DNA from: Salegentibacter salinarum
Lineage (GTDB): Bacteria > Bacteroidota > Bacteroidia > Flavobacteriales > Flavobacteriaceae
Length of the DNA stretch: 64,000 bases
Direction: 5' to 3'
Assembly: GCF_900168115.1 (NCBI RefSeq)
Contig: NZ_FUZC01000007.1
Span: forward strand, 1 to 64,000
The translations under genes were made by a program, and so were the position numbers. The number at the start of each line of letters is the position of its first letter. Positions within the stretch are counted from its first letter, which is position 1. Shown here piece by piece: positions 12,034 through 57,035 of the stretch. Under the pieces are notes generated by a model. The model had not been told where the DNA came from. It saw only the letters and a list, made by a program, of their open reading frames with translations, and did no database searches.

Positions 12034-12079
12034 TTCTCTACAGTTTAAAATTGAACTTGCAAGTCTTATAACATCCTAT

Positions 12080-12125
12080 AAATACAAAAGGCTGTTTCGA
12101 AGTTTCGTTACAGCCTTTTGTATTT
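12080..12125. terminator. Strong bidirectional terminator
   Basis: Perfect 16-bp arms (12080-12095 and 12110-12125) with a 14-nt loop. The outer part of the stem is A-rich on one side and T-rich on the other, so it can serve both ppsA and the convergent WG-repeat gene, whose stop codon lies right next to it. Confidence 0.9.
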
Positions 12126-12126
12126 C

Positions 12127-41243: not shown

Positions 41244-41942
41244 ATGTCTGTCAGAAATAAAAAAGTATTAATAACGGGAGGATCTAGCGGAATAGGAAAA
41301 GCTATTGTAAAAAAACTTTACTCCCACAATCATATCGTGATTGTAGATAAGGTTTCACCGGAAATATCGCATCCGAATATTTCTTTTTTGAACATAGATT
41401 TAGAAGATCAAAAAGAAATTGCATTAGCTCTTCCTAAAATAGCAAAGGAATTCGGTGTTTTTGATCTTCTTCTACTTAATGCCGGCAGAGGTATACAAGA
41501 AAAACTTACGGAAGGAGATCCTGAAAGATGGCAGGAGATCATTAATCTGAACCTTATGGCGCCCTTACGTTTTATAAGAAAATTTGTGCCCCAGATGATG
41601 TCAAAGAAAGCTGGAGATGTGGTAATAATATCGTCTGTAGCTGCTCACCAACCTCATCCTTACGGAGGAATCTATTCGGCAACAAAAACTGCACTGGAAA
41701 TCATTGCCGATACCTTACGCTTGGAAGTAGTTCCATTTGTCCGTGTGACCACTATTGTTCCCGGAATAACTGATACCAGGTTTTTTCAGAATCAAATTTC
41801 TGGTTTTACTTCTGTGGAAAACCTTAACATGGGTGCAATTTCACCTGATGAAATTGCTGATGACCTCATTTACGCCCTCACTAAGAAAAAAGATACTGCT
41901 ATAAATAAAATAATAACTAGACCTGTAAAACAATCATTTTAA
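41244..41942 (+). CDS. Classical short-chain dehydrogenase/reductase
   Basis: 232 aa. Cofactor motif ITGGSSGIGKAI near residue 11, LNAGRGIQ as the NAG motif, and the active site SSVAAHQPHPYGGIYSATK with Ser, Tyr and Lys all in place. VPGITDTRFF is the usual substrate-loop start. An oxidoreductase, in this place perhaps for a sugar or lipid part of the conjugate. First gene of the operon, 17 bp before the epimerase. Confidence 0.85.
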   Translation: MSVRNKKVLITGGSSGIGKAIVKKLYSHNHIVIVDKVSPEISHPNISFLNIDLEDQKEIALALPKIAKEFGVFDLLLLNAGRGIQEKLTEGDPERWQEIINLNLMAPLRFIRKFVPQMMSKKAGDVVIISSVAAHQPHPYGGIYSATKTALEIIADTLRLEVVPFVRVTTIVPGITDTRFFQNQISGFTSVENLNMGAISPDEIADDLIYALTKKKDTAINKIITRPVKQSF

Positions 41943-41959
41943 TATATAGAACTAAAATT

Positions 41960-43072
41960 ATGTCTAAAAAAGTTTTAATAACCGGAGGAGCCGGATTTAT
42001 TGGTTCTCACCTTGCTGATGATCTCCTAAAAGAAGGATATGAAGTTAGAGCCCTAGATTGTCTTTCTCCACAAGTTCATGGAGAAAAAAGAGATAGACCA
42101 AATTACCTACATAAAGATGTAGAACTTATTATTGGTGATATAAGGGACAAAGAAATTGTTTCATTAGCCCTTCAAGATGTTTCAATAGTTTTTCATTTAG
42201 CTTCAATGGTAGGAGTTGGACAAAGCATGTATGAAATAAGAAAATATACTGATGTAAATAATTTGGGAACAGCAATTCTTATGGAATGTTTAATAGACTC
42301 TAGCGTAGAGAAATTAATAACAGCTTCCAGCATGAGTATTTATGGAGAAGGTGCTTATCAGGATGGGTTTGGAACAATTCATCATAACAGTAAGCGTTAT
42401 GTTTCGGATTTAAAAAATAAAAAATGGGAATTATATAACGACGGGCAGGAACTTCAGCCTGTACCAACTTCAGAGAATAAAGTTCCTGCTTTATCTTCTG
42501 TTTATGCTTTATCAAAATACGATCAGGAACGATTAAGTCTTATTACCGGTGAAGCATATAATATACCTACCACTGCACTCCGGTTTTTTAATGTGTATGG
42601 TACAAGGCAGGCGTTATCAAATCCATATACAGGAGTATTGGCAATTTTTGCATCAAGATTTATCAATAATAAGCCTCCGGTCATTTTTGAAGACGGAAAT
42701 CAACAAAGAGATTTTATTCACGTAAGTGATGTAGCAAGAGCGTGCGTATTAGCTATGGAAAGCGAAAAAGCAAATGGAGAGGTATTTAATATTGGAAGTG
42801 GAAAACAATATAAGATTTCCTTTGTAGCCCAGAAATTAGCCCATGTAATGGGTAAAGAAATAAAACCAGAAATAAGTGGAGAATACCGGGTAGGAGACAT
42901 TCGTCATTGTTTCGGGGATATATCAAAAGCCAGAAAATTATTATCATTTGAACCGCAGAAAAATTTTGACGATGGACTTTTAGAGCTTTCCCAGTGGTTA
43001 GAGCATCAGATTGCCAATGACTCTATTGAAAAAGCTAACCAGGAGTTATCAAAACGAGGATTAACCATTTAA
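41960..43072 (+). CDS. NAD-dependent sugar-nucleotide epimerase, dTDP-L-rhamnose 4-epimerase-like
   Basis: 370 aa, extended SDR. GGAGFIGSHLADDLL binds NAD; the active pair is in YALSKYDQ. The segments LDCLSPQVHGEKRDRPNYL and VGVGQSMYEIRKYTDVN resemble dTDP-L-rhamnose 4-epimerases (rhamnose to 6-deoxy-L-talose) more than GalE. The substrate assignment is by resemblance only. 9 bp ahead of the fusion gene. Confidence 0.8.
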   Translation: MSKKVLITGGAGFIGSHLADDLLKEGYEVRALDCLSPQVHGEKRDRPNYLHKDVELIIGDIRDKEIVSLALQDVSIVFHLASMVGVGQSMYEIRKYTDVNNLGTAILMECLIDSSVEKLITASSMSIYGEGAYQDGFGTIHHNSKRYVSDLKNKKWELYNDGQELQPVPTSENKVPALSSVYALSKYDQERLSLITGEAYNIPTTALRFFNVYGTRQALSNPYTGVLAIFASRFINNKPPVIFEDGNQQRDFIHVSDVARACVLAMESEKANGEVFNIGSGKQYKISFVAQKLAHVMGKEIKPEISGEYRVGDIRHCFGDISKARKLLSFEPQKNFDDGLLELSQWLEHQIANDSIEKANQELSKRGLTI

Positions 43073-43081
43073 AATTAAATC

Positions 43082-45112
43082 ATGAAGGAGATAGCAACAA
43101 AAGAACGTGCAAAATTAGGAATACTTGAATGGTTTAGACCTGGAGAGTATAAAGAGGTAAAAGCTGCAATAAACGATTTAAACCGTCTTGGTATAAAACA
43201 TTTGAGGACCGGTATCTCATGGGCCGATTGGCATGTTGAAGGAACCAAAGAATGGTACGATTGGATGATACCAGAGTTAAGTAAACATTTTGAAGTTTTA
43301 CCTTGTTTTCTCTATACACCTCCTTCAATTGGAGAAGCCCCCAAAACATCTTCTCCACCTAAAGACCTTAAATCATATTCTGATTTTACTTCACTGATGA
43401 TAGATACTTATGGGAATCATTTTGATTGGGTTGAATTATGGAACGAACCCAATAATAAAATTGAATACGATTATACCCTGGATTTTTCCTGGAATAAGTT
43501 CTCTGAGATGATTCAATTAGCGGCTTATTGGGCCAAAAAGAAAGGGAAAAAAACCGTTTTGGGAGGCATGAGTCCTATAGATCCCAATTGGCTGCAAATG
43601 ATTATAGAAAAAGGCACCCTTGAAAATATTGACGCTGTGGGTATTCACGGTTTTCCACACGTGTTCGATCAGCAATGGCAAGGTTGGGAGACAAATATTA
43701 AAGAGGTAAAAGCGGTATTATCGCGTTTTAAGCTTCAGAAAGAACTGTGGATTTCAGAAGTTGGTTTTTCCACTTGGCAAAACGATCAGGTAAAGCAATA
43801 TGATGAGTTTGTCAAAGTACTGAATTGTGACGCTGACAGAATTTATTGGTATAGCCTTAAGGATTTAGATCCAAAAAACGCTACTGTGGGTGGTTTTCAC
43901 TTAGATGAAAGAGAATATTATTTTGGGTTGAAAACTAAAAGCTTTACTCCAAAATTGTTGTACAAACTTTTAGAAAAAGAAGGACTGGGAAAAATAGGGG
44001 ACTTAAATTATATTCAGAAATTCTATGATGTAGAGAAGCTGGGTCCTTTTATCCTTATTACGGGAGGAGCAGGTTTTATTGGTACCAACTTAGCCGAAAG
44101 GCTTCTCTCATCTGGTAAACGAGTAATGATTTATGATGCACTTGTTCGTGATGGTGTAGAAAAGAACCTCAAAGAGCTAAAGCACAATTACGGAAGACAG
44201 TTGATGGTTCAAATAGCTGATATAAATGAAGAATATTTGCTAAAGAAGTGTATAGAAATGGCAGATGAAGTTTATCATTTTGCTTCGCAGGTAGCTGTTA
44301 CAACTTCCATTGAAGAGCCCGAAACAGATTTTGATGTTAATTTGAAAGGAACTATAAAACTCTTGGAAGCCATTAGAAAATCGGAGAAAAAGCCCCCGTT
44401 GTTTTTTACTTCAACCAATAAGGTATATGGAGATTTAAGTAATTCAGAATTCAAAGAGTCTAAAACCAGGTATTATCCGAAAGATTCTGATTTAGCTAAA
44501 AATGGTATAAATGAGTTACAGCCGCTAAGTTTTCATAGCCCGTATGGGTGTTCAAAGGGAGCCGCAGATCAGTATATATTAGATTATACAAGAACTTATG
44601 ATCTTAAATGTGTTGTGTTTAGGATGAGCTGTATTTATGGTCCTCACCAATTTGGTACAGAAGATCAGGGTTGGGTAGCACATTTTTTAATTAGTGCTCT
44701 CAAAGGTAAGGATATTACAATTTATGGAGACGGTAAACAAGTAAGAGATATACTCTATGTAGATGATCTCGTTGATGCCTTTATGTTAGCATCTCAAAAT
44801 ATTGAAAAACTTTCCGGGGAGGCCTTTAACATAGGTGGAGGAATTCATAATTCGGTAAGTCTTATTGAACTATTAAAGAAAATCCAGAAGATTACAAGAT
44901 CCTCGTTAGATCTTTCTTTCAATAGATGGAGACAGGGAGATCAACTCTATTATGTTTCAGATACTCAGAAATTTCAAGATGCTACGGGTTGGAAACCTGA
45001 AGTTGAGGTAGATAAGGGTATTGAAAACTTGACACGCTGGTTAACTAAAAATAGAAGCTTTAAAAAACAGACTAAAATATCAACAAAAAAATTAATAGAT
45101 GTTCAGCAATAA
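43082..45112 (+). CDS. Glycoside hydrolase (clan A-like) fused to a CDP-paratose/tyvelose-epimerase-like SDR
   Basis: 676 aa with two enzyme modules. Residues 1 to about 315 form a TIM-barrel hydrolase of the GH-A kind (GH5/GH39-like): acid/base Glu122 in WNEPNNK and nucleophile Glu226 in WISEVGFS, with IHGFPH and IYWYSLKD as further barrel strands. Residues about 320-655 form a complete SDR: ITGGAGFIGTNLAERLL, FTSTNKVYGDLS, SPYGCSK (Tyr and Lys present) and GDGKQVRDILYVDDL. TNKVYGD is a hallmark of CDP-paratose/tyvelose 2-epimerases. No signal peptide, so the hydrolase module works in the cytosol. The reading frame is continuous and I see no internal break. The last 14 bases overlap the next gene. 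Confidence 0.85.
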   Translation: MKEIATKERAKLGILEWFRPGEYKEVKAAINDLNRLGIKHLRTGISWADWHVEGTKEWYDWMIPELSKHFEVLPCFLYTPPSIGEAPKTSSPPKDLKSYSDFTSLMIDTYGNHFDWVELWNEPNNKIEYDYTLDFSWNKFSEMIQLAAYWAKKKGKKTVLGGMSPIDPNWLQMIIEKGTLENIDAVGIHGFPHVFDQQWQGWETNIKEVKAVLSRFKLQKELWISEVGFSTWQNDQVKQYDEFVKVLNCDADRIYWYSLKDLDPKNATVGGFHLDEREYYFGLKTKSFTPKLLYKLLEKEGLGKIGDLNYIQKFYDVEKLGPFILITGGAGFIGTNLAERLLSSGKRVMIYDALVRDGVEKNLKELKHNYGRQLMVQIADINEEYLLKKCIEMADEVYHFASQVAVTTSIEEPETDFDVNLKGTIKLLEAIRKSEKKPPLFFTSTNKVYGDLSNSEFKESKTRYYPKDSDLAKNGINELQPLSFHSPYGCSKGAADQYILDYTRTYDLKCVVFRMSCIYGPHQFGTEDQGWVAHFLISALKGKDITIYGDGKQVRDILYVDDLVDAFMLASQNIEKLSGEAFNIGGGIHNSVSLIELLKKIQKITRSSLDLSFNRWRQGDQLYYVSDTQKFQDATGWKPEVEVDKGIENLTRWLTKNRSFKKQTKISTKKLIDVQQ

Positions 45113-46130
45113 AACCACTGAAGTAATAGATAAAAAAACTGAATGTGTAGAGGTAAAAGGAAAATCCCTATCCCTTGAAGCTCCTAAAAAATTTCAACTA
45201 CAAGAAGTTACTTATCGTCAACCTAAAAAAAACGAGGTAAGAATCGCTCTTGAAGGTTGTGGAGTTTGCGCTTCAAGCCAGCCGATATGGGAAGGCAGAC
45301 CTTGGTTTAATTATCCTGTAGAAGATGGTAATCCCGGGCATGAAGGATGGGGTTTTATAGATGCAGTTGGTCCTGAAGTAAAAAATTTAGAAATTGGAGA
45401 CCGCGTTACTGGTATGTCTTTTAATTCCTTTGCTCAATATGATTATGCACCGGAACAAAACCTGATAAAAATCCCGAATTTTATTAAAAATAAACCTTTT
45501 CCCGGTGAACCATTGGGCTGTGTAGCGAATATATATACAAGGAGTGATATCCAAAAAGGACAGGTAATAGCTATCGTTGGCTGTGGATTTTTAGGTCTTA
45601 TGTTAGTTCAGCTGGCAAAATCCAGAGGAGCAAAAGTTATAGGAGTTTCCCGAAGCGAATCTTCTCTTACTGAGGCAAAAAAAGAGGGTGCAGATTACCT
45701 GATAAAATTAGATAAGACTGAAGATGTTGTTGCTAAAGTTAAGGAAATCACCAAAGATCAATTATGTGATAGAGTGATAGAATGCACGGGAAAAGAAAAT
45801 GCATTAAATACCGCAATCGAAATTACTGGGGTAAAAAAGAAACTCATAGTAGCAGGTTTTCATCAGGGTGGTTTTCGTTCCGTGAATATGCAAATGTTAA
45901 ACTGGCGTGGGATAGATATGATAAATGCCCACGAACGGGAAATTCCTGTCTACTTAGAGGGAATAAGAATGGCCCTTGACGAAATCCAAAAAGGAAACCT
46001 GAAGCCTTTCCATCTTTTTACACATCGGTTTTCGCTACAACAGGCTGATAGGGCTTTTAAACTTATGGAAGAAAGACCAGAGGGTTTTATTAAAGCTTTA
46101 TTAATAAATAAAAAGGCTGAAGATGTTTAG
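45099..46130 (+). CDS. Medium-chain zinc-type dehydrogenase without the structural-zinc loop
   Basis: 343 aa. The catalytic-zinc residues are Cys in GCGVCASSQ and His in NPGHEGWG; the four-cysteine structural loop of classical ADHs is absent. NAD(P) motif GCGFLGLMLVQLAKSRGA. Proteins of this type oxidise polyols or sugar alcohols or act on sugar-derived substrates. It overlaps its neighbours on both sides (14 bp and 8 bp), which shows tight coupling with the fusion enzyme and the Gfo/Idh protein. Confidence 0.85.
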   Translation: MFSNKTTEVIDKKTECVEVKGKSLSLEAPKKFQLQEVTYRQPKKNEVRIALEGCGVCASSQPIWEGRPWFNYPVEDGNPGHEGWGFIDAVGPEVKNLEIGDRVTGMSFNSFAQYDYAPEQNLIKIPNFIKNKPFPGEPLGCVANIYTRSDIQKGQVIAIVGCGFLGLMLVQLAKSRGAKVIGVSRSESSLTEAKKEGADYLIKLDKTEDVVAKVKEITKDQLCDRVIECTGKENALNTAIEITGVKKKLIVAGFHQGGFRSVNMQMLNWRGIDMINAHEREIPVYLEGIRMALDEIQKGNLKPFHLFTHRFSLQQADRAFKLMEERPEGFIKALLINKKAEDV

Positions 46131-47130
46131 GCCAGTTAATCAGAAAATAAACCTTGGTTTCCTAGGCGTGGGATGGATTGGTCTCGATCGTTTAAAAGCT
46201 TTGAATGCATTTGATGGGATTAACATTACATCTTTTTATGAACCATTAGAAGAGAATATAAAAAGAGTACATGAAGTTGTACCCGAAGCAAAAAGTCTTA
46301 ATTCCCCGGAAGATTTATATAATTATCCTGATTTAGATGGTATTGTAATCGCTTCTCCAAGTGCAATGCATAAAGAACAATCTATCAATGCGCTAAAATC
46401 TGGTAAAGCAGTTTTTTGTCAGAAACCATTAGGTAGAACTGAAAAAGAAGTTTCTGAAATTTTAAAAACTGCGGAAACCGCTAATAAAAATCTTGCTGTA
46501 GACTTGTCTTATCGGTATACTGATGCTTTTAAGAAAGTATTACAGGTAATTAGAAATGGCGAAATCGGTGAATTAAGGCAAATCAATTTAATTTTTCACA
46601 ATGCCTACGGTCCAGATAAATCATGGTTTTATCAATATGAGAAATCAGGTGGGGGTTGTATTATAGATTTAGGTATCCATTTAATAGATATCGCTCTACT
46701 TGGTTTAAATTTTTGCGAAATAAAAGAGGTAAAAAGTTACCTATTTGCCAACGGTCAAATTCTGGAGCCAGATGATAGAAAAGTAGAAGATTTTGCTTCA
46801 GTAAGTATGATTGCTGAAACCGGAACATTAATTAACCTACAATGTTCGTGGAATCTTCCCGCCGGAAAAGAAGCAATAATAGAAGCTAGTTTTTATGGAA
46901 GTGAGGGTGGGGTAGCTTTTAAAAATGTTAATGGTTCTTTTTATGATTTTACTGCTGAAAAATTAAACAACACCACAACAGAAACCCTGGTGGAACCACC
47001 AGATCTTTGGGGAGGCAAAGCTGCTTTAAAATGGGCAGATAGTCTTATCGAGGGAAAAACATACGATAAACCTTTTGCAGAACAACTTGTAATGAACGCA
47101 GCAATAATCGATAGGATTTATGGAAGGTAG
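46123..47130 (+). CDS. Gfo/Idh/MocA-family oxidoreductase
   Basis: 335 aa. Rossmann motif GFLGVGWIGLDRL near residues 12-24; the usual EKP cofactor/catalytic motif reads QKP in VFCQKPLGRTEKE. The C-terminal domain has the GGGCIIDLGIHLIDIAL signature with the catalytic His. Probably oxidises or reduces a sugar or inositol. Paired with the zinc dehydrogenase, it could perform a two-step redox epimerisation. Paralogue at 56022-57035. Confidence 0.85.
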   Translation: MFRPVNQKINLGFLGVGWIGLDRLKALNAFDGINITSFYEPLEENIKRVHEVVPEAKSLNSPEDLYNYPDLDGIVIASPSAMHKEQSINALKSGKAVFCQKPLGRTEKEVSEILKTAETANKNLAVDLSYRYTDAFKKVLQVIRNGEIGELRQINLIFHNAYGPDKSWFYQYEKSGGGCIIDLGIHLIDIALLGLNFCEIKEVKSYLFANGQILEPDDRKVEDFASVSMIAETGTLINLQCSWNLPAGKEAIIEASFYGSEGGVAFKNVNGSFYDFTAEKLNNTTTETLVEPPDLWGGKAALKWADSLIEGKTYDKPFAEQLVMNAAIIDRIYGR

Positions 47131-48223
47131 CAAGTTAAAAATATTAATGACTACCGATACCATTGGAGGAGTATGGGTTTATTCCATGCATTTATGTCAG
47201 TACCTTAGTAAGTTTGGTACAGAGGTAATCCTATTATCTTTTGGAGGTAATCCTTCCTCCGATCAGTTGGATGAAGTACAGGCTATAGAAAATCTGAAAT
47301 ATTACCCTACTACCTACAAACTGGAATGGATGGAAAACCCTTGGGAGGATGTTGAAAAGGCGCATATCTATGTTAAGCAACTTTGCGAACTTCATAAACC
47401 TGATGTTATTCACCTTAGTAATTTTATGGATTTAGAAAACATTCTAACTCCTATCGTAAATGTTTATCACTCTTGCGTACTAAGCTGGTGGGAATCGGTT
47501 AAAGGAAATCCTGCTCCTGAAGAATGGCTAAGATATAAGGAATTAGTTCAAGCTTCTCTGAAGAATGCAGATATTGTGGTAGGACCAACCCAATCTATTT
47601 TGAAATCGGCCAGGGAGCTCTATGGTAATGATTTCCATGGAATTTGTATTCCAAATGCCACAGATTACAATTATCCGGAAGAAGATAAGCAGGAATTTAT
47701 ACTCTGTGCCGGGCGGATTTGGGACGATGCTAAAAATTTAAAACTTTTGGAAACTATAGCCCCGAAATTATCCTATCCAGTAGTAGTTGCGGGCTCCAAT
47801 GAACATCCTAATAACGGGGAAAAGCTTAACATTGAAAATGTCATTTTTCTCGGTAGGCTTCCGCAGAAAGAGTTGTTGAAATGGATGTCCAAATCCGCTA
47901 TATTTTTTAGTCCGGTATTATATGAGCCTTTTGGATTAACCATATTGGAGGCTGCAAGATCACGCTGTGCTCTTGTTATTAGTAATATAGATACTCTAAA
48001 AGAAAATTGGTCTCATGCTGCAATATTTTTTGACCCACGTATTCCCGTTCAAGCTTTAGAGGCACTGAATAAACTTATAGCCAACTCTCGATACAGGCAG
48101 CATCTTGGTAAGGTAGCATACAATAGAAGTAATAAATTTTCTTCTGAAAAAAGTACCAGGACGTATCTCGATATTTATAAAAAGCTGAATAAAGTCAATC
48201 AATTACTAAAATTAAACTTATGA
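47120..48223 (+). CDS. Glycosyltransferase family 4
   Basis: 367 aa, GT-B fold. The donor-binding domain has CAGRIWDDAKN, GRLPQKELLKWM and the EPFGLTILEAA motif (Glu-x7-Glu). The N-terminal acceptor domain has TIGGVWVYSMHL. A retaining transferase that uses a sugar nucleotide. Overlaps the genes on both sides by 11 and 4 bp. Confidence 0.88.
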   Translation: MEGSKLKILMTTDTIGGVWVYSMHLCQYLSKFGTEVILLSFGGNPSSDQLDEVQAIENLKYYPTTYKLEWMENPWEDVEKAHIYVKQLCELHKPDVIHLSNFMDLENILTPIVNVYHSCVLSWWESVKGNPAPEEWLRYKELVQASLKNADIVVGPTQSILKSARELYGNDFHGICIPNATDYNYPEEDKQEFILCAGRIWDDAKNLKLLETIAPKLSYPVVVAGSNEHPNNGEKLNIENVIFLGRLPQKELLKWMSKSAIFFSPVLYEPFGLTILEAARSRCALVISNIDTLKENWSHAAIFFDPRIPVQALEALNKLIANSRYRQHLGKVAYNRSNKFSSEKSTRTYLDIYKKLNKVNQLLKLNL

Positions 48224-49332
48224 AATTAGTCATGTTTTATCATTCCCTTTATTCTGATTGGAACCATGGTAATGCCCATTTTTTAAGAGGGATAGTCAGG
48301 GAATTTAAAAATAAAAATTACGATGTTCAGGTTTACGAGCCACAAAATGGATGGAGTCTTGAAAATTTAATTCAAGATCACGGCGCCGAAAAGTTACAGG
48401 AACTAAAAGAATATTATCCAGGCCTGGAAACTAATTACTACGATCCTGCTGAGCCAGATTTAACTACTGCTTTGGAAGGAGCCGATTATGTGATTGTGCA
48501 TGAATGGAATGATAAAAATCTTATAAAGACTATAGGCGAGCAGAAAAAGACGCAAGGTTTTCGACTTTTATTCCACGACACCCATCACCGAGCAGTTTCT
48601 GATCCTGAAAGTTTAGACGAAATAGATTTATCAAATTATGACGGTGCTCTTGTATTCGGGGATATTATTAAAAAGATTTACGAAGAAAAGAAGTGGGCAA
48701 AGCAAATATGGACCTGGCATGAAGCGGCAGATACGGTTCTTTTTAAACCCAATAGGGATGAAGATAAGGAAGGTGATCTCGTGTGGATAGGAAATTGGGG
48801 AGACGACGAACGTGAAGATGAATTGATGGAATTCTTAATCAATCCTGTAAAGGAGCTGGGAATAAAAGCAAAGGTTTATGGCGTTAGATATCCAAAACAT
48901 GCAATTAAAGCACTGGAAGATGCAGGAATTGAATATGGTGGATGGTTGCCTAATTACAAGGTACCGGAAATTTTCAGTAAATATAAACTTACTGTGCATG
49001 TACCAAGAAGGCCTTATGTAGAAATGTTGCCTGGGATTCCCACTATTAGACCTTTTGAGGCCCTTGCTTGTGGTATTCCTCTAATTTCAGCCCCGTGGAA
49101 AGATGTAGAAGGCTTATTTACGTCCGGAAAAGATTACCTAATGGTTAAAAATGGAGACGAGATGGCGTACAGAATTTCCGAGGTCATAAAAAGTGCTCAG
49201 CTAGCAGGAAGTCTATCTGAAAATGGAGTTGAGGTAATTAAGGAGAAGCATACATGTGTACACCGGGTAGATGAATTGGAAAAAATATTTAATGAAATAG
49301 GGGAAAAGATGGTTTCCCCACGAGATAACTAA
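48220..49332 (+). CDS. CgeB-like glycosyltransferase (first of three)
   Basis: 370 aa, GT-B fold related to the CgeB/spore-maturation glycosyltransferase group. It opens MKLVMFYHSLYSDWNHGN, contains HDTHHRAVSD and WTWHEAADTVLFKPN, and the C-terminal domain ends with IRPFEALACGIPLISAPW and GKDYLMVKNGDEM. Overlaps the GT4 gene by 4 bp (ATGA). Acceptor and donor unknown. Confidence 0.8.
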   Translation: MKLVMFYHSLYSDWNHGNAHFLRGIVREFKNKNYDVQVYEPQNGWSLENLIQDHGAEKLQELKEYYPGLETNYYDPAEPDLTTALEGADYVIVHEWNDKNLIKTIGEQKKTQGFRLLFHDTHHRAVSDPESLDEIDLSNYDGALVFGDIIKKIYEEKKWAKQIWTWHEAADTVLFKPNRDEDKEGDLVWIGNWGDDEREDELMEFLINPVKELGIKAKVYGVRYPKHAIKALEDAGIEYGGWLPNYKVPEIFSKYKLTVHVPRRPYVEMLPGIPTIRPFEALACGIPLISAPWKDVEGLFTSGKDYLMVKNGDEMAYRISEVIKSAQLAGSLSENGVEVIKEKHTCVHRVDELEKIFNEIGEKMVSPRDN

Positions 49333-49335
49333 ATT

Positions 49336-50442
49336 ATGGCTAAAAAGAATTTAAAGATCGCTTTTTTCGGCTCTAGTATTGTTTCAGCTTATTGGAACGG
49401 GGCAGCCACCTATTACAGAGGTATTGTTAAATCCCTTAATAAAATGGGTCACTCGGTTACTTTTTATGAGCCGAATATCTTTGAGCGACAAAAAAATCGG
49501 GATATAGAAGATCCGGATTGGTGTGAGGTAATTATTTATGAAAAGGATAAATTGAATCTGAGATCACTGCTTCGTGGAGTTCAGGAAGAGGCAGATGTGA
49601 TTATTAAAGCCAGCGGAGTAGGTGTTTTTGATGAATTCTTAGAATACGAAGTGGCTATGATGAAAGAAGAAGACAACCTTGTTATCTTTTGGGATGTGGA
49701 TGCCCCAGCTACCCTGGAAAGAATGGAAGAGGATAATTCCGATCCCTTTATTCCATTAGTCCCTGAATATGATTTCATCCTTACTTATGGTGGTGGAAAG
49801 CCGGTAATAGAAACCTATGAATCTTTTGGTGCGCAAAAGTGCATCCCCATATATAACGCCCTTGATACCGAAACACATTTTCCAGTTGAAGAAGAGGAAA
49901 AATTCAATGCTACTTTAGCTTTTCTTGGTAATCGCTTGCCAGACAGGGAAAAACGTGTAGAAGAATTCTTTATAAAACCCGCTAATGAATTAACGAATGA
50001 AAATTTCATATTAGGTGGCAGTGGCTGGGGAGATAAAAATCTTCCATCGAATGTAAATTATTTGGGACATGTGTATACAATTGATCATAATGCTTTTAAC
50101 TCCAGCCCTAGAGCAGTTTTAAACATAAGTAGAAATAGTATGGCAACATTTGGTTTTTCGCCGGCTACACGTGTATTCGAAGCAGCAGGAGCAGCGGCTT
50201 GTATTATAACCGACTATTGGGAAGGTATCGAACAATTTTTTGAACCGGGAAAGGAAATTCTTGTGGTAAAGAATGGAGATGAACTAACAAAAATCTTGAA
50301 AGAACTAAATGATGCAGAAGCTCGAAAAATTGGGAAAGCTGCTTTAAAAAGAGTTCTGGGTGAACATACTTATCAGCATCGGGCAAAACTGCTGGAGAAA
50401 ATTTTCTCGAAAGAACTTTTTGGAGAAGAATCTGTTAAATAA
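49336..50442 (+). CDS. CgeB-like glycosyltransferase (second of three)
   Basis: 368 aa. Opens with IAFFGSSIVSAYWNGAATYY, then DVDAPATLERM as the family's central acidic segment, and RVFEAAGAAACIITDYWEG with GKEILVVKNGDEL in the C-terminal half. It aligns with its neighbours on both sides, and more closely with the third copy. 3 bp after the first copy. Confidence 0.82.
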   Translation: MAKKNLKIAFFGSSIVSAYWNGAATYYRGIVKSLNKMGHSVTFYEPNIFERQKNRDIEDPDWCEVIIYEKDKLNLRSLLRGVQEEADVIIKASGVGVFDEFLEYEVAMMKEEDNLVIFWDVDAPATLERMEEDNSDPFIPLVPEYDFILTYGGGKPVIETYESFGAQKCIPIYNALDTETHFPVEEEEKFNATLAFLGNRLPDREKRVEEFFIKPANELTNENFILGGSGWGDKNLPSNVNYLGHVYTIDHNAFNSSPRAVLNISRNSMATFGFSPATRVFEAAGAAACIITDYWEGIEQFFEPGKEILVVKNGDELTKILKELNDAEARKIGKAALKRVLGEHTYQHRAKLLEKIFSKELFGEESVK

Positions 50443-50454
50443 AAAATTAAAAAT

Positions 50455-51525
50455 ATGAATATCGTAATTATTGGATTATCAATTACTTCGTCTTGGGGTA
50501 ACGGACATGCAACTACATACAGGTCTTTATTAAAAGCGCTTTCAGCGCGTGGGCACGAAATCCATTTTCTGGAAAGAGATGTACCTTATTACGCCCAACA
50601 CCGCGATTTACCAAATCCTTCTTTTTGTAAAGTAAATCTTTATAAAGATTTAGAAGAACTAAAGAAAGGGCATACGCACTTAATTGAATCGGCTGATGTA
50701 GTAATTGTAGGTTCATATGTCCCCGAAGGAGTAGCTGTAGGAAATTGGGTAATAGATTCCGCTAAGGGACTAAAAGCTTTTTATGATATTGATACCCCAG
50801 TTACCTTAGGTAAACTGGAAAAAAAGGATTATGAATATATTACTCCTGAACTAATTGCTAAATATGATCTATATCTTTCTTTTTCAGGAGGAACAGTATT
50901 GGAATTTCTCGAAGAAAAATATGGGTCTCCACGTGCCAAAGACTTATTTTGTTCAGTAGATCCGGACCTATATTATCCAAATCAAAAGGAGGAAGAATAT
51001 CTTTTAGGATACCTGGGCACTTACAGTAAAGATCGGCAATCTACACTTAGTAAATTACTTTTTGAAACAGCATGGAATTATCCTAATGAGAAATTTATTC
51101 TCGCAGGTTCTCAATTTCCAGATAAACTTCATTGGCCAACCAATCTAAATCATATAGATCATTTGCCCCCGGCCGAACATTGTAATTTTTACAATAGCCA
51201 ACGCTATACGATAAATGTAACCAGGGCGGATATGATAAAATTTGGTCACTCTCCGAGTGTACGACTTTTTGAAGCTGCTGCTTGTGGAGTACCTATTATT
51301 TCGGATTTCTGGGAAGGTATAGATGATATTTTTTCTATTGAAAAGGAAATTCTTATTGCAAAAGACGCAAAAGATGTAGCATGTTTTATTGAGGAAATAA
51401 ATGAAAGCGAACGTCTGGCTTTGGCTGAAAACGCTAGGGAGAAAGTATTAATACATCATACTTCCCAGGCGCGGGCAAAGCAATTGGAAGCACATATTAA
51501 TGAAGTCTTACAACCCTCACAATAA
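50455..51525 (+). CDS. CgeB-like glycosyltransferase (third of three)
   Basis: 356 aa. IVIIGLSITSSWGNGHATTY, YDIDTPVTLGKLEKKDY, RLFEAAACGVPIISDFWEG and KEILIAKDAKDV mirror the second copy segment by segment. Tandem duplication followed by divergence is the simplest origin. Three such enzymes in a row suggest three linkages in one oligosaccharide or three acceptors. Confidence 0.82.
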   Translation: MNIVIIGLSITSSWGNGHATTYRSLLKALSARGHEIHFLERDVPYYAQHRDLPNPSFCKVNLYKDLEELKKGHTHLIESADVVIVGSYVPEGVAVGNWVIDSAKGLKAFYDIDTPVTLGKLEKKDYEYITPELIAKYDLYLSFSGGTVLEFLEEKYGSPRAKDLFCSVDPDLYYPNQKEEEYLLGYLGTYSKDRQSTLSKLLFETAWNYPNEKFILAGSQFPDKLHWPTNLNHIDHLPPAEHCNFYNSQRYTINVTRADMIKFGHSPSVRLFEAAACGVPIISDFWEGIDDIFSIEKEILIAKDAKDVACFIEEINESERLALAENAREKVLIHHTSQARAKQLEAHINEVLQPSQ

Positions 51526-51530
51526 ACCTT

Positions 51531-52325
51531 ATGGAAACAGAAAAGAAAATAGAAGAGTTAGCACCCTGGTTTCATAACCTGCATTTACCTGATGGTCTCC
51601 AAACGGCACCGAATCATTTCCTTGGAGATTTTCCTCAATTTAAATGGGAAAAAATTAAACATGAAATACCTGAAGATCTTCAGGGAATGGAAGTTTTGGA
51701 TATTGGCTGTAATGCAGGATTTTATGCCATTTCTCTGGCCCGGCGTGGAGCTAAGGTTACCGCTATAGATCTGGATGATCACTATCTGAATCAGGCAAAG
51801 TGGGCTGCAGAAAAGTTCAATGTTTCTAATCAAATTGAATTTAAGAATATGCAGGTTTATGATCTGGCTCAGGAAGATAAAACTTATGACCTGATTTGGT
51901 TCATGGGGGTTTTTTATCACCTAAGATATCCACTATTAGCAATGGATATTATTTCCAGAAAAACCAGTGATTATTTGGTTTTTCAAAGTTTATCCCTGCA
52001 AGGGTCTTCTGGCCAAGAAGTGCCTGAAAATGTAGATTTTGAAGAAAGGCATTTACTGGAGAGTGAAGATTGGCCTTCCATGGCATTTATTGAGAAGAAA
52101 TTTGCCGGAGATCTTACCAACTGGTGGGTTCCCAATGCTGCAGCTATAAAAGGGATATTAAATAATTGTGGCTTCAAGATAATCGCTTCCCCGGAAGATG
52201 AAACTTACATTGCACGAAAGAATAACGCTATATCCCACCAGGAACGATGGAATAATTCAGAGTATTTATCGGCAATTGGAAAAAATTGGAGAGATGAGGT
52301 TAAAGATAAAATTAATAAATATTAA
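51531..52325 (+). CDS. SAM-dependent methyltransferase
   Basis: 264 aa, class I Rossmann methyltransferase of the DUF1698/CmoB-like kind. SAM motif VLDIGCNAGFYAISLARRGA near residue 55, acidic AIDLDDHYLNQA, and FMGVFYHLRYPLLAMD as motif IV-V. Also WWVPNAAAIKGIL, typical of this group. In this operon it probably O-methylates a sugar of the conjugate. 5 bp after the third CgeB-like gene. Confidence 0.85.
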   Translation: METEKKIEELAPWFHNLHLPDGLQTAPNHFLGDFPQFKWEKIKHEIPEDLQGMEVLDIGCNAGFYAISLARRGAKVTAIDLDDHYLNQAKWAAEKFNVSNQIEFKNMQVYDLAQEDKTYDLIWFMGVFYHLRYPLLAMDIISRKTSDYLVFQSLSLQGSSGQEVPENVDFEERHLLESEDWPSMAFIEKKFAGDLTNWWVPNAAAIKGILNNCGFKIIASPEDETYIARKNNAISHQERWNNSEYLSAIGKNWRDEVKDKINKY

Positions 52326-52344: not shown

Positions 52345-52623
52345 ATGTCAGAATCAAAAAAGACCAAAGATCACCAGGAAATAAAGGAATGGGTAGAAGA
52401 AAGAAAGGGTAAACCCGCATTAGTAAAATCTAATGAAAATACTGGTACGGCAGATGGTCTCTTAAGAATTAAATTCTCCAAAGATCAAAGTGAAGAAAAT
52501 TTAGAAACAATTACCTGGCCTAAATTCTTTACCATTTTTGATGAAAATCGCTTGGAATTTCTTTATCAGGACGAGACCAAAGAAGGGAATACGAGTAGAT
52601 TTTTCAAGTTTGTTAGAACTTAA
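52345..52623 (+). CDS. Small acidic protein (family often labelled 1,4-alpha-glucan branching enzyme)
   Basis: 92 aa. Features: HQEIKEWVEERKGKPALVK, then DGLLRIKFSKDQ and a C-terminal ITWPKFFTIFDENRLEFLY followed by QDET. The same pattern occurs in short proteins that databases often call branching enzymes although they are far too small for one; I regard the real function as unknown. Cytosolic. In the middle of the operon, so it may be a regulator or cofactor protein of the pathway. Confidence 0.7.
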   Translation: MSESKKTKDHQEIKEWVEERKGKPALVKSNENTGTADGLLRIKFSKDQSEENLETITWPKFFTIFDENRLEFLYQDETKEGNTSRFFKFVRT

Positions 52624-52634
52624 TCTTTATTGCA

Positions 52635-53618
52635 ATGAAAACAATTTTAATAACAGGGGCTGCCGGATTTATTGGATCTCATCTTTGTGATCGTTTTCTA
52701 AATGAAGGTTATCGGGTTTTAGGTATGGACAACTTCATAACGGGAAGTCCTGCCAATATAGACCACTTAGCAGATAATCCTAATTTTATCTTTTATGAAA
52801 ATGATATTATTGAATCTATAGACGTACAGGCAAATGTAGATTACATTCTGCATTTTGCCTCCCCCGCTAGCCCAATTGACTATTTGAAAATACCTATTGA
52901 AACTTTAAGAGTGGGGGCTATGGGAAGCTATAATGTCCTGGAATTAGCCAGAATTAAAAACGCCAAGGTTCTTATTGCTTCTACTTCTGAGGTTTATGGG
53001 GATCCGCTTTCTCATCCACAAAAAGAAGAATATCTGGGAAATGTTAATACTATTGGCCCCAGGGGTGTTTATGATGAAGCGAAACGATATATGGAAGCGA
53101 TAACTATGGCTTACCATACTACGTATAATCTACCCATCAGTATTATTAGAATTTTTAATACCTATGGACCGAGAATGAGATTAAATGATGGCAGAGTTAT
53201 TCCGGCTTTTCTAGGACAGGTATTAAACAATGAACCTCTTTCCATTTTTGGAGATGGATCTCAAACCAGGTCTTTTTGTTATATAGACGATCTTGTTGAA
53301 GGGATATATACAGCGCTTTTCAACGATTATCCTTATCCTATTAACCTTGGAAATCCAGAGGAAATCACAATTAATGAACTGAGCAGGGAAATCATAAAAA
53401 TTGCCGGGGAGGAAAAAGAAATTCTATTTAAACCATTGCCCAAAGGAGATCCGGTAAAAAGGAAACCAGATACCTCAGTGGCCAGAAAAATTCTTAATTG
53501 GGAACCTATAACCGGCAGAGATAAAGGCTTAAGATTAACTTTGGATTATTTTAAAAATCTATCTAATCCCACTCTGCTAAATAAAAATCCGAGGAATTTT
53601 GAACCTTTAAATATGTAA
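52635..53618 (+). CDS. UDP-glucuronate decarboxylase-like SDR (UDP-xylose synthase)
   Basis: 327 aa. ITGAAGFIGSHLCDRFL, FASPASPIDYLKIPIETLRVG and ASTSEVYGDPLSHPQ are signatures of UDP-glucuronate decarboxylase; catalytic Tyr and Lys in GVYDEAKRYMEA; then RIFNTYGPRMRLNDGRVIP. It would give UDP-xylose from UDP-glucuronate for one of the glycosyltransferases. Last gene of the run, 11 bp after the small acidic protein. Confidence 0.9.
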   Translation: MKTILITGAAGFIGSHLCDRFLNEGYRVLGMDNFITGSPANIDHLADNPNFIFYENDIIESIDVQANVDYILHFASPASPIDYLKIPIETLRVGAMGSYNVLELARIKNAKVLIASTSEVYGDPLSHPQKEEYLGNVNTIGPRGVYDEAKRYMEAITMAYHTTYNLPISIIRIFNTYGPRMRLNDGRVIPAFLGQVLNNEPLSIFGDGSQTRSFCYIDDLVEGIYTALFNDYPYPINLGNPEEITINELSREIIKIAGEEKEILFKPLPKGDPVKRKPDTSVARKILNWEPITGRDKGLRLTLDYFKNLSNPTLLNKNPRNFEPLNM

Positions 53619-53798: not shown

Positions 53799-54818
53799 TT
53801 GAAGCCTATAAAAATCTTTACATTTCCGGCATTTAAAACTTTTAATAAGTTAGCCAATCATTTGGAAAATAGAACTATCAATTCTCCACTTCCTATTCTG
53901 GAAATATCAGAAAAGTTAGGTAAAGGAAATATTTTGGCACTTGATATTTATAATGATATATCTGTCATATTAGTTAGTGGCCACTTTAAAAATGATCTTC
54001 TATTGCATCTGATAACCAATGTAGAGAATCCTCTTAATTTTATTTACAATTATAATACCCCATTTGATTATAAGCATGGGAATAATAACACCTGGCGGGA
54101 GCTAGACCAATTTCAACACGCTATTATTTCCAATTCTCCCAAAACCAATACTAAGGTAAAATTAAAAGCTAATAAACTTTATTACAGTTATATTATCTCC
54201 ATATCAAAAGCTGTATATCTTAATAATAGAAATTACTGTACCCAAACTGTTGCTGATTATTTAAAAATTATTTTTGAAGAAAAGGATAGTACTCCAGATT
54301 TTTTTCACAATGGAACCTATAATTTGCAGATAGCTAATATTCTTAAAGAGATAAATCTTCAAAATTTTTCTTCTTTCGAGCATCATATATTTTTAGAAGC
54401 AAAAATCCATGAATTAATTAACCAACATCTTTTGCAATACAAAAGAGATATTGATAATAGTGCTAATACATCTAATTTATTCTCTTATGAAGTAAAGGCT
54501 ATCCACACGGCAGCAGTTTATATACAAAATCATATGGACGAAATTAAAACAGTAGAGCAGGTAGCTAGATATGTAGGCTTAAATAGCAATAAATTACAAA
54601 GAGGTTTTAATCAACTATTTAATATAAGTGTAAATAGTTTTATAAGGAATGCCAGAATGTCTAAAGCTGAAGAGCTTTTAATAAATTCAGAAGAAACAGT
54701 TTGTCAAATTGTTTCTAAAATAGGTTTGAATAGTAATAGTTACTTTTCCAAGTTATTTAAAGAAAAGTTTAAAGTTTCGCCTTCTCAGTTTAGAATTAAG
54801 AATAGAACCGTAAGTTAA
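53799..54818 (+). CDS. AraC-family regulator (first of a pair)
   Basis: 339 aa, start codon TTG at 53799. The N-terminal ~220 residues are a poorly conserved sensor domain with a cupin-like part (DQFQHAIISN). The C-terminal AraC domain shows VEQVARYVGLNSNKLQRGF, then SFIRNARMSKAEELL, then ETVCQIVSKIGLNSNSYFSK and FKVSPSQFR. Paralogue of the next gene. Immediately downstream of the sugar operon, so probably its regulator. Confidence 0.85.
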   Translation: MKPIKIFTFPAFKTFNKLANHLENRTINSPLPILEISEKLGKGNILALDIYNDISVILVSGHFKNDLLLHLITNVENPLNFIYNYNTPFDYKHGNNNTWRELDQFQHAIISNSPKTNTKVKLKANKLYYSYIISISKAVYLNNRNYCTQTVADYLKIIFEEKDSTPDFFHNGTYNLQIANILKEINLQNFSSFEHHIFLEAKIHELINQHLLQYKRDIDNSANTSNLFSYEVKAIHTAAVYIQNHMDEIKTVEQVARYVGLNSNKLQRGFNQLFNISVNSFIRNARMSKAEELLINSEETVCQIVSKIGLNSNSYFSKLFKEKFKVSPSQFRIKNRTVS

Positions 54819-54864: not shown

Positions 54865-55887
54865 ATGCTAGTAATTAAAGTAAATGCTATCCCTCTTGAT
54901 GATGTGATGTTGGATTTAGGGAAAGCTTTTGGGGTAGAGGTAGAAGAAACTTGTAAGGAACTAAAATTAAAGTTACCAACATCCTTAGGTACTGGTAACA
55001 TTTCAGGAATTCAATTCCCTAACGGATTGGGTTTTATACAATATGATTGTAAGTTTCATAAAAATACAGAAATTCATTTTATTAAGAGTGAAGTTCATCC
55101 TTTGAAATTCATATATGTAACCGAAGGCCAACTTAAACACCGGTTTTCAAATGGTGATCAGCTCCATAAGATTGATCAATACCAACATGCAATTGTGGCC
55201 AGCGAAAAAAATAATGGGCATATTTTAAAGTTTGAAAAAGGTAAAGAAACATGCTTTTCGAGCATAGAGCTAAATAGAATAGAATTTGAACAAAAACTTG
55301 CCTGTAAATTGTTAGGTGTATCTTCAAGTTTAACACAAGTCTTCTACGATGTAAAGGCATTAAATAGTTTTTACCATAATGGTTATTATTCCTTAAAAAT
55401 AGCAGACCTTTTTGAGGATATGAATAGTTATAAAAAAGAGAATTTTATAAGGAAACTTTTTTTGGAAGCTTTTACTATTCAAATGTTAGCTGAGGAGATC
55501 TTGCAGTATGAAGATGCCTTGAGAGAGGAGGGAAATGCTGAAATTTTAACGCGTTATGAACTAGGGGCAGTAAAAGATGCAGCTGAATTTATTGAAGAAA
55601 ATATTTTTAAAAACCTCGTGGTGAGAGGGATTTCCATTGAAGTGGGAATTAACCAGAACAAATTGCAAAATGGTTTTAAAACCTTATATGGACTGACCGT
55701 TCACGATTTTATAAAAAGACATCGACTCCAACTTGTCAGAGACCTGCTATTAAACACAGATTTACAGATTAACGAAATATCCGATAGGGTAGGAATAAAT
55801 AGTAAAAGTTATTTCTCAAAAGTATTTAAAGAAAAATATGGTTTAACACCTAAAGAATTTAAGAAAAAAGCTGAGTTAGCAAAATAA
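54865..55887 (+). CDS. AraC-family regulator (second of a pair)
   Basis: 340 aa. Same architecture as the protein at 53799: sensor region with VHPLKFIYVTEGQLKHRF and DQYQHAIVASE (compare DQFQHAIISN), FYHNGYYSLKIADLFEDMN (compare FFHNGTYNLQIANILKEIN), and a C-terminal HTH pair ending EKYGLTPKEFKKK. 46 bp after the first copy. A tandem duplication whose copies may sense different ligands or form a heterodimer. Confidence 0.85.
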   Translation: MLVIKVNAIPLDDVMLDLGKAFGVEVEETCKELKLKLPTSLGTGNISGIQFPNGLGFIQYDCKFHKNTEIHFIKSEVHPLKFIYVTEGQLKHRFSNGDQLHKIDQYQHAIVASEKNNGHILKFEKGKETCFSSIELNRIEFEQKLACKLLGVSSSLTQVFYDVKALNSFYHNGYYSLKIADLFEDMNSYKKENFIRKLFLEAFTIQMLAEEILQYEDALREEGNAEILTRYELGAVKDAAEFIEENIFKNLVVRGISIEVGINQNKLQNGFKTLYGLTVHDFIKRHRLQLVRDLLLNTDLQINEISDRVGINSKSYFSKVFKEKYGLTPKEFKKKAELAK

Positions 55888-56021: not shown

Positions 56022-57035
56022 ATGGAGGACGAAGGGAAATTTTTAAGGATAGGTATTATAGGGGCTAGTCGCTTTGGTGTAAATCAAATTTCTCGTTTAA
56101 AGAATGAGCAAAATTTAAATATCGATTTTGTAGTACTTGATAAGAATTTAAATAACCCAAAGGAAATAATTAACGAAATTCCTTCTGCTGAATTTTTAAG
56201 TTGTGAAAAAGAATTCTTTAAAAGTGCAACGAATGGAATAATATTGGCAGATTATGTGGATCTACAATTAAAAAAATATCAGCCATCCTTTAAAAAAGCA
56301 ACCTCCTTCTTTTGTAATGCCAATTTCTTAAGTCAGCTTGAGGGTTTAGAACATTTTCTTCAAATTGCCAAATCAAAGAATATCCTGGTTTGTTTTAATT
56401 TACCTTTTCGGTTTACCCGAGGCTTTTTAGAGCTTAATGATATTGTAAGAAAGGGTAAACTAGGAAAAATTCACCAAATTGATCTTACCTATTATAAGAA
56501 TCAATCGGATGAAGGTACGGCTTCTTGTAAAAATCACACTAACTTTTTTGGAGGGTTTATGGATACTGGCGTTCATTTGCTGGATATTGCTCTAAAATCT
56601 CTCAATTATCCGGAAATTAAATATTTAACCGCTATCCCTTATAAAAGAGGGAAAAAAATTGAAAAACAGAATCCATTCTGCGAAGATTATTTATTACTGA
56701 CTTGTATAACTGCAAACGGAACATTAATAAACCTTAGGTGTTCCAGAAACCTTCCTCGAACCAGAAAACGGACAATAGAAGCAGATTATCATGGAGAGAA
56801 GGGGGATCTTAGATTAAGAAACCACGATAAATCGGAACATGATTTAATAGTGGAGGAGTATAAAAATGAATATTTAAGTATAGTAAGCTCCCCTCCAGAT
56901 GTATTTGTTGATGCGGCCATAAAAGAGTGGATTTGGAGTTTAAGAGCTGAAAAAGGATATGATAAAAAAATTGCAAAAGAAATGTTAGCCCTTGCAGGTG
57001 TGGTCCATCAAATTTATAATCAACCCTCACCGTAA
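56022..57035 (+). CDS. Degenerate Gfo/Idh/MocA-like protein
   Basis: 337 aa. Aligns with the oxidoreductase at 46123 along the full length: IGIIGASRFGVNQISRL for the Rossmann motif, GGFMDTGVHLLDIAL for the substrate-domain signature, and NGTLINLRCSRNLPRTRK for GTLINLQCSWNLPAGKE. The second cofactor Gly is replaced (ASRFG) and the EKP region reads FFCNANFLSQ, so the catalytic Lys is missing. It could be a binding protein or regulator rather than an enzyme. Followed by a terminator. Confidence 0.75.
   Translation: MEDEGKFLRIGIIGASRFGVNQISRLKNEQNLNIDFVVLDKNLNNPKEIINEIPSAEFLSCEKEFFKSATNGIILADYVDLQLKKYQPSFKKATSFFCNANFLSQLEGLEHFLQIAKSKNILVCFNLPFRFTRGFLELNDIVRKGKLGKIHQIDLTYYKNQSDEGTASCKNHTNFFGGFMDTGVHLLDIALKSLNYPEIKYLTAIPYKRGKKIEKQNPFCEDYLLLTCITANGTLINLRCSRNLPRTRKRTIEADYHGEKGDLRLRNHDKSEHDLIVEEYKNEYLSIVSSPPDVFVDAAIKEWIWSLRAEKGYDKKIAKEMLALAGVVHQIYNQPSP

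Follow-up and report, generated by a model that had tools for sequence, protein, structure and literature searches.

According to the abstract of PMC9075953, glycosidase genes are often present in exopolysaccharide gene clusters, with the need for them there being stated as unclear. One such enzyme, PslG, is a retaining endo-beta-glucosidase with the catalytic residues Glu165 and Glu276 (PMC11912335, PMC9075953), is co-transcribed with the psl genes and is located for the most part at the inner membrane, some of it being periplasmic (PMC9075953). Among the enzymes acting on nucleotide sugars, the residue roles of cytidine diphosphate (CDP)-tyvelose 2-epimerase, TyvE, are taken here from PMC13098431 and PMC7851689. 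We analyse a gene in which a PslG-like hydrolase and a TyvE-like epimerase are joined in one frame, and which lies in a stretch of 64,000 nucleotides of Salegentibacter salinarum (contig NZ_FUZC01000007.1, positions 1 to 64,000), called the window in the following. The two halves are called HYD (hydrolase) and EPI (epimerase), respectively. The fusion, its conserved catalytic residues, the gene cassette around it, the permutation of the barrel in other genomes and the decayed copies are read directly from DNA and protein sequences. New here, beyond what the window itself holds, are the permuted stand-alone form of HYD and the decay of either half.

The fusion gene and its two halves

The gene at 43082-45112 on the forward strand runs from ATG to stop over 676 codons (676 residues) without interruption, as claimed in the initial annotation, and no competing frame over 43082-45112 is present in the six-frame list of open reading frames (ORFs) of at least 80 residues. 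Structure prediction of both halves, which that annotation had proposed as a check, gave a barrel at a mean predicted local distance difference test score (pLDDT) of 93.2 for HYD (AlphaFold2, alignment of 40 sequences) and, for the full-length protein, a mean pLDDT of 89.8 with a predicted template modelling score (pTM) of 0.88 (AlphaFold2, alignment of 49 sequences). The N-terminus has no signal-peptide-like segment, again as had been stated, with the highest 15-residue hydrophobicity within the first 40 residues being 0.11.

A profile of the hydrolase half was searched against the contigs of 84,980 species genomes, giving 145 confirmed candidates, of which the best 80 were analysed as named loci; since these 80 were picked with the profile of the fused form, they are no gauge of the frequency of separate halves. 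HYD and EPI share one frame without stops in 79 of the 80 loci, in 76 of these over the entire EPI, with the contig ending before EPI in L041 and within EPI in L040 and L045, and with the fusion frame of L064 breaking within EPI near 11482 and the remaining EPI lying in another frame. The break in L064 may be a sequencing error or a pseudogene. It is also noted that in the record of a Xanthomonas sacchari plasmid (L013, 10001-12117) the hydrolase half is divided over two frames near its 5' end. The fusion is moreover annotated on Agrobacterium and Rhizobium plasmids as 'NAD-dependent epimerase/dehydratase family protein' and on a Paracoccus plasmid as 'SDR family NAD(P)-dependent oxidoreductase', where SDR denotes the short-chain dehydrogenases/reductases and NAD nicotinamide adenine dinucleotide. 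The initial annotation had considered that a sequencing error near codon 318 might join two genes, or that all relatives might encode two separate proteins. No such junction error is found, and not every relative encodes the halves separately. For an assembly or sequencing artefact no supporting point was found; against it stand the one-frame fusion in 79 of the 80 loci and the annotated Agrobacterium and Rhizobium plasmids, and we regard an artefactual join as ruled out for all practical purposes.

Judged by the titles of the best 80 of the 145 loci, the fusion occurs in Bacteroidota, Alphaproteobacteria, Gemmatimonadota, Armatimonadota, Verrucomicrobiota, Acidobacteriota, Chloroflexota and Citrifermentans (Thermodesulfobacteriota). 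It is present in 3 of 60 related genomes, the window's own genome included, and in none of the 14 same-genus genomes searched, one of which is only 61% complete. Because the fusion is absent in the congeners searched and the cassette around it is conserved across distant phyla, this patchy occurrence suggests horizontal transfer.

In the whole fusion protein Pfam recognises SDR families only, the longest match covering residues 325-649; when the hydrolase half is searched by itself, neither Pfam (up to E 1) nor NCBIfam (up to E 0.01) gives a family match. The model of HYD is a (beta/alpha)8 barrel with Glu122 (motif WNEPN) right after strand 4 and Glu226 (WISE) in strand 7, meaning that the two catalytic Glu of a hydrolase like those of clan A of the glycoside hydrolases (GH) are at the sites given for them before. 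Its best folds in the PDB are three PslG entries, 4zn2, 5bx9 and 9g17 (Foldseek, E 7.5e-17 to 8.5e-16), with a template modelling (TM) score of 0.74 by query and 0.57-0.58 by target and with 18-19% identity in the structural alignment. PslG is likewise the top match of a profile of 40 HYD sequences (E 6e-4), its motifs WNEPN and STEWG, which presumably hold Glu165 and Glu276, being aligned to the motifs around Glu122 and Glu226. A GH1-like reading of HYD, based on 4ipl at E 0.003 with a first, small profile, was superseded by PslG in the wider profile and the fold search. The barrel extends to about residue 307, after which comes the SDR, with no accessory C-terminal domain; GH39 enzymes have such a domain beyond the barrel. 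PslG and HYD are both encoded within a glycan-biosynthesis operon, and they differ in that PslG is single-function, with 416 residues in the solved chain, whereas HYD is a bare 313-residue barrel fused to an SDR, and in that HYD has no signal peptide whereas PslG has the membrane and periplasmic location described above.

Of the 95 distinct fused barrels allowing a score over their length, 93 keep both Glu, the decayed barrel of genome G415 being outside this count as too broken to score; all of the 38 permuted relatives considered in the next section keep them too. From sequence and model, HYD is thus predicted to be a PslG/GH39-like retaining glycosidase, and the suggestion that the hydrolase fold serves another reaction is not favoured by this conservation. 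Note also that the initial annotation had seen a puzzle in a hydrolase working inside the cell beside an epimerase. Action on an intracellular intermediate, which it proposed, is plausible, but the combination need not be odd, since PslG provides a precedent from a biosynthesis operon (PMC9075953).

For EPI, the nearest solved relatives are CDP-tyvelose 2-epimerases (phmmer, 9rl0 at E 7e-90 and 1orr at E 6e-81), and its fold matches that of 1orr with a Foldseek TMt of 0.92 at 42% identity over 338 columns. Residues were counted in 49 aligned fusions, the degenerate L044 being left out of the alignment. All 49 have the NAD-motif glycines; the triad Thr124/Tyr164/Lys168 (TyvE numbering) is kept in 48 at each position, with the one exception, L049, altered at all three, and Thr, Asn125 and Lys126 of the TNK segment in 48, 48 and 49, respectively; the equivalents of Gln205, Gln235, Arg237 and Arg299 are kept in 49/49 and that of Asp204 in 47/49. 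A signature of 17 residues is complete in the window protein, which bears out the earlier claim that the cofactor and catalytic residues of the SDR are intact. Of the cytosine-side residues, Trp207 and Phe211 are kept in 49/49, while Tyr203 is replaced by Glu in 49/49 and Trp210 by His in 48/49. The VAM segment (Val83-Ala84-Met85) is not kept as such, with Val83 in 33/49 (Thr in 15/49), Ala84 in 48/49 and Met85 in 0/49 (Val in 48/49). EPI is therefore alike to TyvE (1orr, 9rl0) in its NAD motif, triad, TNK segment and the two Gln and two Arg, whereas it differs in the replacements at positions 203, 210, 85 and, in part, 83, and in being fused to a glycosidase.

Judging by these residues, EPI may carry out epimerase chemistry of the C-2 type on a nucleotide sugar, the base of which may not be cytosine. 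CDP as the nucleotide is doubtful, because the cytosine-side residues Tyr203 and Trp210 of TyvE are replaced. Of the earlier description as 'CDP-sugar-epimerase-like', the TyvE-like SDR core stands and the CDP part does not stand firmly.

Permuted and decayed forms

Besides the fusions, a search of plasmid proteins gave relatives of about 35% identity that match HYD in two pieces, with the C-terminal part of the domain coming first, several of them being annotated as 'beta-xylosidase' or glycosyl hydrolase. When the HYD profile is doubled, each of these permuted proteins gives one continuous match, 63-80 bits over the better single piece. In 38 such proteins, which were chosen by the two-piece pattern itself, the first piece starts within residues 111-118 of the window's HYD and the second ends within 110-119, with 0-10 residues linking the old termini and a length of about 290-344 residues; none of 760 shuffled controls has the permuted pattern. 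In the HYD model the cut lies after helix 3 (97-113) and before strand 4 (116-119), i.e., at a loop, with the permuted form beginning at beta-4 (WNEPNN) and ending after alpha-3. The equivalents of Glu122 and Glu226 are present in 38/38, as are those of Asn121, His189, Trp256 and Tyr257. One permuted relative, L099, has a sub-threshold Pfam match to Glyco_hydro_cc (17.1 bits, cut-off 21). A stand-alone 'beta-xylosidase' of the rhizobial and other alphaproteobacterial cassettes, such as WP_247973979.1 of Bradyrhizobium sp. 195, shares with the window's HYD the homologous barrel, both Glu and a related cassette, and differs from it in being circularly permuted (strand 4 first, helix 3 last) and unfused.

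In a tree of the barrels, made by a quick search and having long branches to the outgroup, the permuted proteins (38) and the fused ones (43) each form one clade, with 99 in the Shimodaira-Hasegawa-like approximate likelihood ratio test (SH-aLRT) for each. Because each form is a single clade, the tree fits a single permutation event. Other clan-GH-A barrels share the strand order of the fused form, and we therefore regard the stand-alone form as permuted. The case appears to be one of circular permutation arising naturally in a clan-GH-A-like barrel. A known circular permutation of a glycoside hydrolase barrel is that of GH70 relative to GH13; these, however, are alpha-glucan enzymes of clan GH-H, whereas the present case is clan-GH-A-like and lies in a glycan-biosynthesis cassette. 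Among the papers listed on permuted glycoside hydrolases, those recognised as treating a permuted barrel concern GH70 and GH13, many of the others being unrelated.

The two forms were also counted in taxon samples, with only some first-look candidates per genome scored, so that the counts are lower bounds. Among 385 genomes of Alphaproteobacteria at least 14 match, 7 with full fusions and 7 with permuted forms; of the latter, G415 also has a degenerate fusion and G272 a fusion fragment at a contig end that keeps Glu226. At least 32 of 347 Rhizobiales genomes match, 28 with permuted and 6 with fused forms (the one of G540 degenerate), both forms being present in G540 and G745. For Acidobacteriota the count is at least 6 of 247, comprising G060 with both forms, 2 genomes with permuted forms and 3 with weak other relatives only.

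EPI also occurs alone. Sixteen stand-alone EPIs close to the fused EPI were found, 15 in the same stretch as a permuted HYD (two of them in Sinorhizobium meliloti) and one in L049, and all 16 have the 17-residue signature of the window's EPI, Glu and His included. In a tree of 15 stand-alone and 48 fused EPIs, from which the dead fused EPIs of L044 and L049, S. meliloti L097 and numerous near-duplicates among the fused rows are omitted, the stand-alone and fused EPIs are interspersed, with at least 7 changes between them, 4 of which are forced by well-supported branches. Because the fused HYDs form one clade while the EPI kinds intermix, repeated loss of the fused barrel would be simpler than repeated fusion, as far as these quick trees indicate.

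Decay of the barrel is found in three fusions that keep the full signature in EPI. In L047, from a metagenome-assembled genome (MAG) of Candidatus Solibacter (G060), both Glu are changed to Gln (WNQP, VTQT), and the same contig carries an intact permuted HYD some 10 kb farther along, past the methyltransferase. In G415 both Glu and the strand-4 motif are lost, and in G540 Glu122 is changed to Gly with Glu226 kept; both genomes have an intact permuted HYD. A TGA was flagged in the permuted matches of G060 and G415, where the protein just ends one residue past the last matched residue. An intact permuted copy is therefore present in 3/3 genomes with a degenerate fused barrel, compared with 7/88 genomes with an intact one (Fisher p 0.001, uncorrected for kinship). 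The 7/88 is made up of 1/50, 6/30 not counted before, 0/7 and 0/1 for the window's own genome, and the count excludes L085 and G1109 (L041; partial barrel only). The other half can decay too: in L049 (Microvirga) the fused EPI lacks the active-site Asn, Tyr and Lys, with an intact stand-alone EPI in the same cassette, and in L044 (9397-11379, forward strand) the barrel is intact and the SDR half is degenerate.

Since the two Glu survive, and have been lost so far only in genomes with a permuted copy, the pattern argues for HYD activity being under selection. Since the dead barrels are retained, there is also room for a binding or structural role. It can accordingly be considered that HYD is mainly a carbohydrate-binding or structural module that positions a substrate for EPI or for the glycosyltransferases, with catalysis being secondary, and the in-frame barrels that have lost Glu (both to Gln in G060, both in G415, Glu122 in G540), together with the pTM of the HYD-EPI pair given above, would be explained by it. 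This is unlikely, however, in view of the two Glu being kept in nearly all fused barrels scored and in every permuted protein, and of all three decayed barrels being in genomes with an intact permuted copy.

A proposed role in glycan synthesis

Based on these data, we consider it probable that the fusion, part of a mobile cassette for glycan biosynthesis, is a cytosolic bifunctional enzyme whose EPI half makes a sugar donor and whose HYD half edits the glycan of the cassette; the reactions, the shared pathway and the direction of evolution are what we infer from sequence comparison. EPI, as a TyvE-like, NAD-dependent SDR, would invert a carbon, probably C-2, of a nucleotide sugar, which would then supply the glycosyltransferases of the cassette. 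HYD would act by hydrolysis or transglycosylation on a glycosidic bond of the cassette's product, either during its growth or once it is finished, this step being one of trimming, release or editing, i.e., a PslG-like role inside the cell. The two activities would belong to one pathway for which a single chain is not required. In related cassettes the permuted stand-alone HYD would have replaced the fused barrel repeatedly, and the replaced barrel would have decayed or been lost, leaving EPI alone.

A different acceptor at the same active site would make HYD mainly a transglycosylase, moving a glycosyl block between cassette intermediates. The retaining-type clan-GH-A-like active site and the synthetic gene context are both compatible with this, but no sequence feature distinguishes HYD from a hydrolase or points to an acceptor site, and we give this variant a slightly smaller chance than the binding role discussed above.

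Several points weigh against the proposed bifunctional enzyme. With Thr at the Val83 equivalent in 15/49 fusions and the cytosine side altered, the C-2 specificity of EPI is a guess, and the sequence likeness of HYD to GH39 is weak, with no Pfam match. No transporter, flippase or polymerase was seen in the window's run of 12 genes, because of which the product of the cassette is probably a soluble or otherwise exported glycan, and no obvious nucleotidyltransferase is present in the window's cassette. The genome of L044 has no close EPI elsewhere, the best having 36% identity, meaning that EPI is not indispensable everywhere. The co-occurrence of decayed barrels and permuted copies rests on three decayed genes, one of them (L047) from a MAG, and six of the seven genomes having an intact fused barrel plus a permuted copy are Rhizobium species, so that their counts are not independent. 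Finally, the three decayed barrels are still fused and in frame, which would be unneeded for a purely catalytic role.

The family is of use for the question, stated as unclear in PMC9075953, of why glycan-synthesis clusters carry glycosidases, as it offers natural experiments: the same barrel occurs as part of a fusion, as a free permuted protein, and in decayed form in genomes that also encode a permuted copy. Culturable examples are S. meliloti (permuted HYD and free EPI) and Rhizobium etli (fused). The family also gives a shared identity to two uninformative labels, 'NAD-dependent epimerase/dehydratase family protein' and 'beta-xylosidase'. As a more speculative extension, which we put forward tentatively and hold to be possible rather than probable, the glycosidase may be an obligatory step to an unrecognised soluble, methyl-capped, possibly inositol-primed oligosaccharide of many phyla, and selection for it may be so strong that one ancient permuted copy has repeatedly displaced the fused barrel, with dead substrate-gripping barrels, such as the natural double Glu-to-Gln change, being living intermediates.

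The cassette, its relatives and its neighbours

The window's cassette consists of 12 genes in the same direction, none of the gaps or overlaps between them exceeding 19 bp (Table 1).

Table 1. Features of the fusion gene and of the cassette, in coordinates of the window
Feature	Position	Strand	Basis
HYD-EPI fusion gene, 676 residues	43082..45112	+	ORF, frame check, full-length model
HYD, PslG/GH39-like, clan-GH-A-like barrel, residues 1-313	43082..44020	+	model, Foldseek, PslG profile match
Glu122 codon, predicted acid/base, WNEPN, just after strand 4	43445..43447	+	
Glu226 codon, predicted nucleophile, strand 7, WISE	43757..43759	+	
EPI, TyvE-like extended SDR, residues 321-662	44042..45067	+	phmmer, Foldseek, 17-residue signature
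Thr445-Asn446-Lys447, TNK segment of TyvE	44414..44422	+	alignment; PMC13098431
Tyr488...Lys492, SDR catalytic residues	44543..44557	+	alignment
SDR oxidoreductase, run start, in most Bacteroidota copies	41244..41942	+	Pfam, locus comparison
EpiA, GalE-like epimerase/dehydratase, 9 bp upstream of fusion	41960..43072	+	Pfam, locus comparison
Zinc-type alcohol dehydrogenase (Zn-ADH), 14 bp overlap with fusion end	45099..46130	+	Pfam
Gfo/Idh/MocA oxidoreductase	46123..47130	+	Pfam
GT4-type glycosyltransferase	47120..48223	+	Pfam
PF13524 glycosyltransferase a	48220..49332	+	Pfam
PF13524 glycosyltransferase b	49336..50442	+	Pfam
PF13524 glycosyltransferase c	50455..51525	+	Pfam
TIGR04290 methyltransferase, 327.7 bits (cut-off 300)	51531..52325	+	NCBIfam
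Small protein without a Pfam match at E 0.001, with relatives close to some sister cassettes	52345..52623	+	
UDP-glucuronate decarboxylase-like SDR (UXS), named by homology only	52635..53618	+	

The label UXS comes from homology to genes of sister cassettes annotated as 'UDP-glucuronic acid decarboxylase family protein'. In most of the 80 loci (several are short or truncated), the larger part of the cassette genes flanks the fusion, with rearrangements, and glycosyltransferases, methyltransferase and epimerases flank it in Bacteroidota, Pseudomonadota and others. In a simple hydropathy scan no convincing membrane segment is present in the 12 cassette proteins, the highest value being 2.07 (Zn-ADH), whereas a control membrane protein from the window reaches 2.53. 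No CDP-sugar synthesis gene was recognised in the window's run. By family names, by the fusion and by combinations of gene names no paper on the cassette was found in the open-access collection searched, absence from which does not mean unpublished.

With Zn-ADH and a Gfo/Idh/MocA oxidoreductase within the same run, the cassette could also be read as catabolic, HYD cutting an imported oligosaccharide and the dehydrogenases and epimerases feeding the sugars to metabolism. This is improbable, even more so than the two other roles of HYD weighed above, because the run holds four glycosyltransferases, a methyltransferase and the UXS-like SDR, no transporter or surface-binding gene is seen in it, and EPI is similar to nucleotide-sugar enzymes.

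For the sister cassettes, 31 loci with permuted HYD were examined, several of the stretches being cut. A TIGR04290-type methyltransferase adjoins the permuted HYD in 28/31 (the exceptions are S. meliloti L097/L098 and L211), a gene like that of inositol-3-phosphate synthase and one of a histidine phosphatase are in the same stretch in 27/31, and a further glycosyltransferase and a nucleotidyltransferase in 17/31. The synthase label rests on a match under the NCBIfam cut-off (528.8 bits, cut-off 638). Directly 3' of the permuted HYD in L099 lies a phosphopentomutase gene (10945-12150; DeoB, over the NCBIfam cut-off in L099), with similar genes in L200 and L206, suggesting a supply of pentose-1-phosphate for a nucleotide sugar.

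Among 38 divergent intergenic regions at the alphaproteobacterial copies, 5 contain the motif GGAAC-N16-18-CGTT, which we take to be that of EcfG (general stress response), where 0.25 are expected from shuffles and about 1 at whole-locus density; control by EcfG is accordingly not general. No p42b gene names were found in passages of two Rhizobium etli stress papers.

On the forward strand beyond the cassette lie, in order, two adjacent AraC-type genes (53799-54818 and 54865-55887), possible regulators whose helix-turn-helix is confirmed by Pfam in the first and judged by eye in the second, and a second gene of the Gfo/Idh/MocA family (56022-57035), matched in its C-terminal domains only and possibly a diverged paralogue of 46123-47130. 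An ORF of 279 residues at 62573-63412 has, by eye, a start like that of P-loop sulfotransferases, with no Pfam match at E 0.001. Between them are the genes of a DUF892 protein (57501-57986) and a manganese catalase (58409-59278); some sister cassettes have genes annotated as ferritin-like, DUF1003 or YsnF/AvaK in their vicinity, and a link to stress is thereby hinted at.

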